Below are positions 15,127-17,280 of a DNA stretch of 64,000 bases, piece after piece. Source of the stretch: Chitinophagaceae bacterium (lineage in GTDB: Bacteria > Bacteroidota > Bacteroidia > Chitinophagales > Chitinophagaceae); NCBI GenBank assembly GCA_004322425.1, contig SCVJ01000032.1, positions 1 through 64,000 of the forward strand, given 5' to 3'. Under the pieces are notes generated by a model, which was not told where the DNA came from, searched no databases, and was given only the letters and a program-made list of their open reading frames with translations. The position numbers and the translations under genes were made by a program. Numbering within the stretch: position 1 is the stretch's first letter; each line of letters begins with the position of its first letter.

Positions 15127-16074
15127 TTATTTATCAACCATTACTTTCTTCCACAAAAGAGGAATTCTTTTGATCCACACCAGTTCTTTTCTTTTTTGTT
15201 GTGCTTCTCCGACAGGAAAACCAAAATATGTTTTTCCACCTTTCAAAGATGATGTAACACCACTTTTGCCCAATACAATGGCACCTTTCCCAATCGTTAA
15301 TGTTTTATTCACACCTACTTGCCCCCATAACACTACATTATCTTCAATTATTGTAGCGCCGGCAATACCTACCTGAGCAGCAAACAAACAGTTTTTTCCA
15401 ATATTGGTATCGTGTCCTAGGTGTACCATATTGTCCAATTTTGTCCCGGCACCAATTCGTGTATCGCCACTCACACCACGGTCAATAGTACAAGCGGCTC
15501 CAATTTCTACATCATTTTCTATTACCACCCTACCACAACTTTTCATTTTTTTATAATGAATATCTCTATTTGCTTTTTTATTATAATAGAAAGCATCGCT
15601 ACCAATTACAGTTCCGGATTGAACAATTACATGATCGCCCAATACACAATGATCCAATATTGTAACATTGGGATGAATGATACAATGATGACCAATACTA
15701 ACTTCATTACCAATATAAACTCCGGGCATAATCACTGTGGAGTTTTCAATTTTTGCTGTATCGCTAATCATTTTCATGCTTGGAGAAAATGGACGAAAAT
15801 GGTGGACCAATTTTTGATACGCTTCAAATGGATCTTCCACAATTAATAAAGTTTTACTTGATGGGAAATCAACTCTTTCATTGATAATTATAAATGTTGC
15901 ATCTGAAGTTAGACAAGCATTGTAATATTTTGGATGATCTACAAATACGATATCTCCTGTTTCAACTTGATGTATTTCATTAATACCGGTAGCGTGCTGA
16001 ATATTATTTCCAACAATCTCGGCATTAATCATAGCAGCAATTTCGCTAATACCAACGGGGGTTTTAAAACGCAT
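15127..16074 (-). CDS. lpxD: LpxD-like UDP-3-O-acylglucosamine N-acyltransferase
   Basis: LpxD-type N-terminal domain, left-handed beta-helix hexapeptides, GIAGATIIEDNVVLWGQVGV. Confidence 0.85.
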   Translation of the reverse strand: MRFKTPVGISEIAAMINAEIVGNNIQHATGINEIHQVETGDIVFVDHPKYYNACLTSDATFIIINERVDFPSSKTLLIVEDPFEAYQKLVHHFRPFSPSMKMISDTAKIENSTVIMPGVYIGNEVSIGHHCIIHPNVTILDHCVLGDHVIVQSGTVIGSDAFYYNKKANRDIHYKKMKSCGRVVIENDVEIGAACTIDRGVSGDTRIGAGTKLDNMVHLGHDTNIGKNCLFAAQVGIAGATIIEDNVVLWGQVGVNKTLTIGKGAIVLGKSGVTSSLKGGKTYFGFPVGEAQQKRKELVWIKRIPLLWKKVMVDK

Positions 16075-16251
16075 ACACTAAATTTTTACAAAGATAATTC
16101 TCGACAGTTGCTTGTAATTTTTTATCTTTTATTAGAATTAATCACTCCTTTTTTATACTCACTAACTTTTTATTTGATTTCGATTATCCACAACTATAGA
16201 AAAATGTTAATAAAATTTATTCAAATATTTTTCTGTCGTATAAATTCTTAG

Positions 16252-16259
16252 TAACATTG
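16252..16259 (+). promoter_or_regulatory. candidate -7 box TAACATTG with TTTC 18 nt upstream
   Basis: One mismatch to the Bacteroidota TAnnTTTG -7 consensus. Confidence 0.4.
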
Positions 16260-16262
16260 TGT

Positions 16263-16335
16263 AGGGAAATTCGTTTCCCGATACTTACTAACCCATCTCC
16301 ATATTAATCTCTCGAATCTTCGGGAGATTTTTTTT
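16263..16335 (+). ncRNA. candidate small RNA ending in an intrinsic terminator
   Basis: GGGAAA-TTCG-TTTCCC hairpin (16264-16279), single-stranded linker, 10-bp terminator stem (16306-16329, one G:U) then six T; no ORF; sits between divergent genes. Confidence 0.55.
16306..16335 (+). terminator. intrinsic terminator
   Basis: AATCTCTCGA-atct-TCGGGAGATT followed by TTTTTT. Confidence 0.8.
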
Positions 16336-16404: not shown

Positions 16405-17280
16405 ATGCTTAAATCCATGACTGGTTTTGGAAGAGCCGAACAAGCCGTTGGCGATAAAACATTTTTAATTGATATTAAATCGTTAAACGGAAAACAATTT
16501 GAATTACAATTACGGCTTCCAGCATTTTTGAAACCGTTTGAATTTGAAATTCGGCGAATCTTATCCGCTAAACTGGGAAGGGGCAGCATTGATTGTGCTA
16601 TTAGTTTGAAAGAATCGGGGAAAGCAAGGCCAGTCGCTATTAATACGGAGCTTGCTAAAGCCTATTATCACTCATTAACTGAGCTTACATCGTCGCTCAA
16701 CTTAGACACCTCTCATCTTTTAAGCACCCTTTTGAAGCTACCAGAAGTAATAACACCAACAGGTGAAACGCTGACAGATCAGGAATGGGACGAATTCAAA
16801 AAAATTATTGAATCGGCTATTGATAATCTAGAAATTCATCGAAATGATGAAGGGAATATGTTGGAAAAAGAATTACTTTTTAGAGTTGAAAATATTTTAA
16901 AACTACAAGAAGGAATTGTTCAACTAGAGCCGCTTCGCCAAAAAACTATTCGTGAAAGAATTACTAAATTGTTAGAAGAACAAATTGGAAAAGAAAATTA
17001 TGATAAAAACAGACTCGAACAAGAGTTAATTTATTATATCGAAAAAATTGATCTGACTGAAGAACAATCAAGATTAAAGAATCACTGCGAATATTTTAAA
17101 ACCGTCCTAACAGAAAATGAAGATGCGAAGGGCAAAAAATTATCTTTCATTATGCAGGAAATTGGCCGAGAGATAAATACAACGGGATCGAAAGCCAATG
17201 ATGCAACAATTCAAAAAATAGTAGTTCTGATGAAAGACGAATTGGAAAAAGCAAAGGAACAGGTTTTAAATGTGCTCTAA
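16405..17280 (+). CDS. yicC: YicC family endoribonuclease-like protein
   Basis: MLKSMTGFGRAE start, IKSLNGKQFELQLRLP, C-terminal KLSFIMQEIGREINTTGSKANDATIQKIVVLMKDELEKAKEQVLNV. Confidence 0.97.
   Translation: MLKSMTGFGRAEQAVGDKTFLIDIKSLNGKQFELQLRLPAFLKPFEFEIRRILSAKLGRGSIDCAISLKESGKARPVAINTELAKAYYHSLTELTSSLNLDTSHLLSTLLKLPEVITPTGETLTDQEWDEFKKIIESAIDNLEIHRNDEGNMLEKELLFRVENILKLQEGIVQLEPLRQKTIRERITKLLEEQIGKENYDKNRLEQELIYYIEKIDLTEEQSRLKNHCEYFKTVLTENEDAKGKKLSFIMQEIGREINTTGSKANDATIQKIVVLMKDELEKAKEQVLNVL

Follow-up and report, generated by a model that had tools for sequence, protein, structure and literature searches.

Two questions are raised by the intergenic stretch between the divergent lpxD and yicC genes in the window (the whole 64,000-nt stretch of DNA analysed here): whether it holds an RNA gene of its own and, if so, with what this RNA would pair. 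A preliminary description had proposed a candidate small RNA of ~73 nt at this place, independent of both neighbours and belonging either to a known Bacteroidota family or to a new one.

sRNA1, a predicted terminated RNA between lpxD and yicC

The box, TTTC, hairpin, linker and terminator of the preliminary description were all found at the positions it had given (Table 1), arranged in the order promoter-like TAACATTG, 5' hairpin, single-stranded linker and intrinsic terminator. In folding prediction the core of the RNA, here called sRNA1, had a mean unpaired probability of 0.98. The promoter consensus is TTTG/TAnnTTTG (PMC7366714), and the mismatch in the -7 box was peculiar to the window's genome. 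The ORFs listed across this stretch are mechanical only; a small peptide encoded in sRNA1 was considered and rejected, the lengths of the hairpin and the spacer being variable.

Table 1. Features of the sRNA1 locus and its neighbours in the window
Feature	Position	Strand	Remarks
lpxD	15127..16074	-	Divergent neighbour; Pfam LpxD, Hexapep; conserved context, outside the RNA
Box 1 TTATCCACA, DnaA-box-like	16184..16192	+	First inverted-repeat arm, upstream of promoter
Box 2 TGTTAATAA	16205..16213	-	Second inverted-repeat arm; reverse strand TTATTAACA, in most relatives TGTGAATAA
-33-like element TTTC	16230..16233	+	18 nt before -7 box; TTTTTTG or similar in relatives
-7 box TAACATTG	16252..16259	+	All 85 other loci of the 86 aligned have TAATATTG
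sRNA1	16264..16335	+	~72 nt; ends predicted from promoter spacing and terminator
5' hairpin GGGAAA-TTCG-TTTCCC	16264..16279	+	Perfect; covaries in most genera
Core TACTTACTAACCCAT	16282..16296	+	15-nt invariant single-stranded region; predicted to pair with sRNA2
Intrinsic terminator	16306..16335	+	10-bp stem 16306-16315/16320-16329; T run to 16335
yicC	16405..17280	+	Downstream neighbour; Pfam YicC-like N and C; own box TAACTTTA

BLASTN and covariation across Chitinophagaceae, which the preliminary description had suggested as a check, gave a conserved block in which both helices covary. Of 20 tested relatives belonging to the same genus or family, 17 gave the block with varying strength, and no tested relative from another family did. 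In the aligned copies the parts follow one another in a common order: the inverted repeat upstream, then an AT-rich stretch, TAATATTGTG, the GGGAAA/TTTCCC hairpin, TACTTACTAACCCAT and the terminator. From 17 copies a covariance model was made, which in a sample of the phylum matched 8 of 8 members of the family and none of the 190 remaining genomes. When applied to the family as a whole, it matched 217 of 244 genomes (192 of the 209 of good quality), almost always as a single copy. Carriers included Chitinophaga, Niastella, Niabella, Sediminibacterium, Ferruginibacter and other Chitinophagaceae, as well as MAGs. Weak model matches in order-level relatives (L083-L085) did not have the core and were rejected as chance.

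In 86 aligned copies, 97.3% of the modelled pairs were standard, and helix covariation reached 0.489; shuffles gave 0.180 and slid controls no more than 0.127. Compensatory changes were present at all 7 modelled pairs of the terminator (98.1% paired), changes on both sides were seen in 4 of the 6 pairs of the 5' hairpin, and the 15-nt core was nearly invariant. The most divergent genera were without the 5' hairpin and still had the core and the terminator, which suggests that the core is the essential part of sRNA1. With these family-wide model matches and covarying helices, the small RNA first proposed as a candidate is taken to be real. As to its family, Rfam gave none at threshold for sRNA1, the best hit being His_leader with 21.7 bits against a threshold of 49 (E 0.33), a chance match; ten loci with sRNA1 or with its partner gene described below gave no match either, Flavo-1, 6S and Bacteroidales-1 included. 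Flavo-1 and 6S, the families named beforehand, had no useful score.

Pfam bore out the proposed identities of the minus-strand neighbour as lpxD and of the plus-strand neighbour as yicC, and the separate box of yicC was present. In relatives, the minus-strand side is usually occupied by lpxD, and the place downstream of sRNA1 by yicC, by a gene for a pseudouridine synthase of the RluE-like type or by one that runs on the opposite strand; in one genome (G015), sRNA1 and yicC lie on different contigs. Since the downstream genes vary while sRNA1 is retained, it is a gene of its own, as had been proposed, and not a yicC leader. In many genomes the terminator does lie just before the downstream start codon, as would be the case for a leader or attenuator of the following gene (yicC here, the RluE-like gene in most relatives); with sRNA1 retained beside a different or an opposite-strand gene (G015, G011), and yicC having its own box in the window, such a role is exceedingly improbable. 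By sequence criteria, i.e. promoter, conserved structure, terminator, lack of an ORF and independence of neighbours, sRNA1 is an intergenic terminated small RNA.

A second gene with the complementary sequence

Nearly all of 20 genomes searched had the exact complement ATGGGTTAGTAAG at one or more further places, where about 3 sites in total would be expected by arithmetic; antisense sites with one mismatch to the core showed no enrichment in the same 20-genome search. Most of the further sites belonged to a second conserved gene, sRNA2, consisting of a promoter-like AATTTTG-N18-TAATTTAG (TACATTTG in a divergent clade), followed by GAATTTAATGGGTTAGTAAGTA and a terminator, and carrying the exact reverse complement of the 15-nt core of sRNA1. 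A second covariance model, built for sRNA2, matched 212 of the 244 genomes of the family and none of the 190 outside it, and the stem covaried strongly (0.900 against 0.249). The gene has a divergent Zn_peptidase_2 gene on one side and radA downstream. In many genomes it shares a chromosomal region with sRNA1, at a spacing of 4 to 40 kb in a good number of them, and the two are not adjacent. A peptide reading of sRNA2 (AUG-GGU-UAG) was rejected, as it is broken in G366, G432 and G022.

In the window's own genome, sRNA2 lies at the end of a contig (C298) and is cut within its terminator (L323). Assembly contigs often end in or near this gene, as at G000:C298:6-43 (L323), G247:C198:6-55, G355:C31:15-84, G337:C46:393, G003:C109:582 and G004:C3:649.

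Pairing between the two RNAs was followed in 57 genomes of about 45 genera for which both cores were in hand, the 15-bp duplex giving 855 cells. Of these, 824 were Watson-Crick, 15 were G-U and 16 were mismatched, so that 98% of the pairs were kept; core columns 4-11 were paired in every genome. When partners were reassigned, 0 of 5000 trials were as good as the real pairs. Because the partner shuffle makes no correction for shared ancestry, individual compensatory events weigh more. A double change was restored in G366 (sRNA1 CCTAT, sRNA2 ATAGG) and two positions were restored in G315 (sRNA1 CATTTAC, sRNA2 GTAAATG); full compensatory change was confined to three positions in two genera, and G-U pairs were retained in several other genomes. 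Mismatches were A-A in one genus (g19) and near the end of the duplex in another (g2). In G294 and G299 the complementarity was longer, sRNA1 CCCATAAATTC facing sRNA2 GAATTTTATGGG with one bulge, and reached the otherwise unpaired GAATTT of sRNA2. sRNA2 begins with an invariant GAATTTA, which lies outside the duplex in most genera, suggesting that sRNA2 may have an additional role.

Occurrence of the two genes agreed as well: a lax search of 40 divergent genomes found both in 33, neither in 4, sRNA1 only in 3 and sRNA2 only in 0. In g35, a degenerate sRNA1 was present and sRNA2 was not detected. Two separate RNA genes with complementary regions conserved in evolution, the mark of a sponge pair, were thus found, and base pairing between sRNA1 and sRNA2 is well supported by these comparisons. 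That pairing can be read from intermolecular sequence changes is rarely possible.

An inverted copy is complementary automatically, and a family-invariant 15-nt element can be a protein site; the core might accordingly be a protein-binding site or DNA element, with no RNA pairing involved. Such an explanation appears very unlikely, as both copies are fixed between a promoter and a terminator, the terminators covary as RNA stems, the two genes have changed together in G315 and G366 in ways that restore pairs, and the element is not enriched otherwise.

Other carriers and the direction of regulation

Outside the sRNA1 and sRNA2 genes, the surroundings of 24 exact 13-mer sites were inspected, and 14 of the sites directly precede a terminator-like stem. 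The complement is found 1) 3' of recA, before the terminator, in five genera (L259, L311, L315, L448, and L454); 2) 3' of a gene of the bacilliredoxin family (L257, L317, L445, and L453); and 3) 3' of a gene for a LexA-like HTH plus Peptidase_S24 protein (L441 and L442). Most genera have no exact copy behind recA, and by appearance the site was gained repeatedly. In two divergent genera (L314 and L446), a stand-alone element, ATGGGTTAGTAAGTACAGTCC with a terminator, adjoins an hsp20 gene and is perhaps a third small RNA.

Two uncultivated phage types also carry the element, AATTTAATGGGTTAGTAAG followed by a terminator (L457:8881-8950; L458:2068-2120 / L460:3125-3180). In L457 it lies directly 3' of an endolysin gene on a contig that also has a terminase gene. 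Among the 62 viral 13-mer matches, only those of L458/L460, which are one phage type, passed the strict terminator filter; L457 was accepted by eye, as it has the same 19-nt element with a longer loop, and the remaining matches were rejected as chance. The phage elements are candidate decoys for sRNA1.

Taken together, these elements probably belong to a system in which a hub, sRNA1, is restrained by a dedicated sponge, sRNA2, and by decoys in mRNAs and phages. sRNA1 would be a trans-acting base-pairing RNA with a protective 5' hairpin, an exposed 15-nt core UACUUACUAACCCAU and a terminator end. From the sRNA2 gene an RNA of ~55-60 nt with the exact complement AUGGGUUAGUAAGUA would be made, which would pair with sRNA1 and sequester it, thereby acting as a sponge or anti-sRNA. 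Once added to certain mRNA 3' ends (recA, bacilliredoxin, and LexA-like HTH-S24) and to the two phages, the complement would provide sites that either titrate sRNA1 too or are its direct targets. The comparisons establish the two genes, their common distribution and a complementarity that has been maintained; from sequence we infer the expression of sRNA1 and sRNA2, the direction of the sponge with sRNA1 as the hub, and the existence of further mRNA targets. That sRNA1 is the hub is suggested by the recurrence of the complement, and not of the core, in unrelated transcripts, and by recurrence of the core solely in paralogues: genus g7 (L251 and L451, two of the 24 sites) has a second sRNA1-like copy, with TACTTACTAACCCAT or a near form of it and a terminator, outside the lpxD locus. 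Near-invariance of all 15 core nucleotides suggests partners beyond sRNA2. A sponge model requires a target set, yet the exact 13-mer search detected no sRNA1 target in a 5' UTR, its sites being those at the 3' ends of recA, bacilliredoxin and HTH-S24 genes.

These 3'-end sites, with 14 of the 24 placed just before a terminator-like stem, including five that follow recA, each in a different genus, would also suit an sRNA1 that pairs beside terminators (of sRNA2, recA, bacilliredoxin and HTH-S24) and alters transcript stability, sRNA2 then being just another target or a stable remnant of processing. We regard this as unlikely: sRNA2 lacks an ORF, is preceded by a promoter-like sequence of its own and keeps the same place in more than 200 genomes, which better suits a decoy, and the recA sites are found in some genera only.

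The opposite direction was also considered, pairing being symmetric in sequence: sRNA2 and the 3' ends that resemble it would do the regulating, and sRNA1 would serve as their sponge. The invariant stretch of sRNA2, GAATTTAATGGGTTAGTAAGTA, is the longer one and reaches past the duplex, and an sRNA1-type core was seen in the ftsA-ftsZ gap, sense with ftsZ, of a single genome (L449, G252:C1:823326), where it may be chance. Against these points, sRNA2-type sites occur in many unrelated transcripts and the sRNA1-type core in almost none, and the architecture of sRNA1, an exposed seed between two hairpins, is that of a regulator; reversal of the roles is quite unlikely.

Conservation of sRNA1 extends beyond the interval of the preliminary description to an inverted pair of boxes, with the full pattern nnWTNCACA-N13-TGT[GT]NATAA. 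Box 1 (nnWTNCACA) was present in 81 of 86 aligned loci and Box 2 (TGT[GT]NATA) in 84 of 86; in 72 of these 84 loci a distance of 49 nt separates Box 2 from the -7 box downstream of it. The gap between the boxes is usually 13 nt and is 12 nt in the window. In sRNA2, TTATN[CA]ACA lies at -66 from ATGGG in 32 of the 37 loci having the box, and its distance to the -7 box is much the same as in sRNA1, so that TTATNMACA boxes often occupy fixed positions in both promoters. Among genomes with both genes, the box was present at both in 21, at sRNA1 only in 13, at sRNA2 only in 0 and at neither in 23 (p = 5e-7, kinship ignored). In sequence, the motif matches the DnaA box TTATNCACA. Both promoters are presumably under common control via these boxes.

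Two further uses of the boxes were considered. For an operator regulon, 20 genomes gave few exact inverted pairs at other places, and those looked like chance; a search for the box-plus-promoter pattern with 3 mismatches allowed returned mostly noise. An oriC, marked by a DnaA-box cluster at a skew switch, was not supported, as there are just two DnaA-like boxes and their position varies among complete chromosomes. Skew, sampled in one complete relative (G009), was flat.

A broader scheme may be put forward tentatively, although we consider it doubtful: a family-wide circuit made of RNA only, in which the anti-sRNA beside radA and the decoys on recA, LexA-like and bacilliredoxin mRNAs would determine how much of the hub is free, transcription connected with DNA damage or redox stress would thereby release the hub's targets, one box-binding factor (perhaps DnaA) would act on both sRNA genes, and phages would bring their own decoys.

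Comparison with known systems

The core sequence was absent from the open-licence papers searched, among which there was also no report of an sRNA sponge in Bacteroidota; sRNA1 and its sponge in Chitinophagaceae thus seem to be undescribed. RNA regulation is little known in this phylum. If true, the present reading would mean a core-genome sRNA/anti-sRNA pair across a whole family, which might connect RNA titration with recA and phage, and the two small non-coding genes form a directly testable system.

Within the phylum, Rfp18 of Flavobacterium psychrophilum (PMC9723704) and GibS of Bacteroides thetaiotaomicron (PMC7366714) are likewise intergenic sRNAs with promoters of the -7/-33 type, and B. 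thetaiotaomicron is stated to be without obvious Hfq and ProQ (PMC7366714). Rfp18 is described as a genus-level RNA and GibS as a Bacteroides RNA, without mention of a partner sRNA for either. Anti-sRNAs encoded by prophages of pathogenic E. coli titrate a host sRNA by imitating its target (Tree et al. 2014, as cited in PMC12559287), whereas the Chitinophagaceae case consists of sequence elements alone in two uncultivated phages (L457, L458/L460).

In Bacillus subtilis, a species with no Hfq hub, the sponge RosA pairs with another sRNA, RoxS, and each of the two has its own gene and promoter (PMC8216469). FsrA is a further partner of RosA, and CcpA represses RosA (PMC8216469); the resemblance to the present pair is one of function, with no relation in sequence implied. 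The CrfA sponge and the SisA-D (alphaR8) sRNAs of Caulobacter crescentus (PMC12559287) resemble the present pair in that an sRNA with a 5' hairpin (weak in Caulobacter), a conserved single-stranded core and a terminator is countered by a complementary second sRNA. The SisA-D core is 10 nt long, whereas that of sRNA1 is 15 nt with an exact complement in sRNA2. CrfA and SisA-D differ from sRNA1 and sRNA2 in being Hfq-dependent and in belonging to another phylum with another sequence, and the pairing region of CrfA sits in a stem loop. Four siblings face one sponge in Caulobacter, whereas the Chitinophagaceae pair has one hub together with 3'-UTR and phage copies of the complement.
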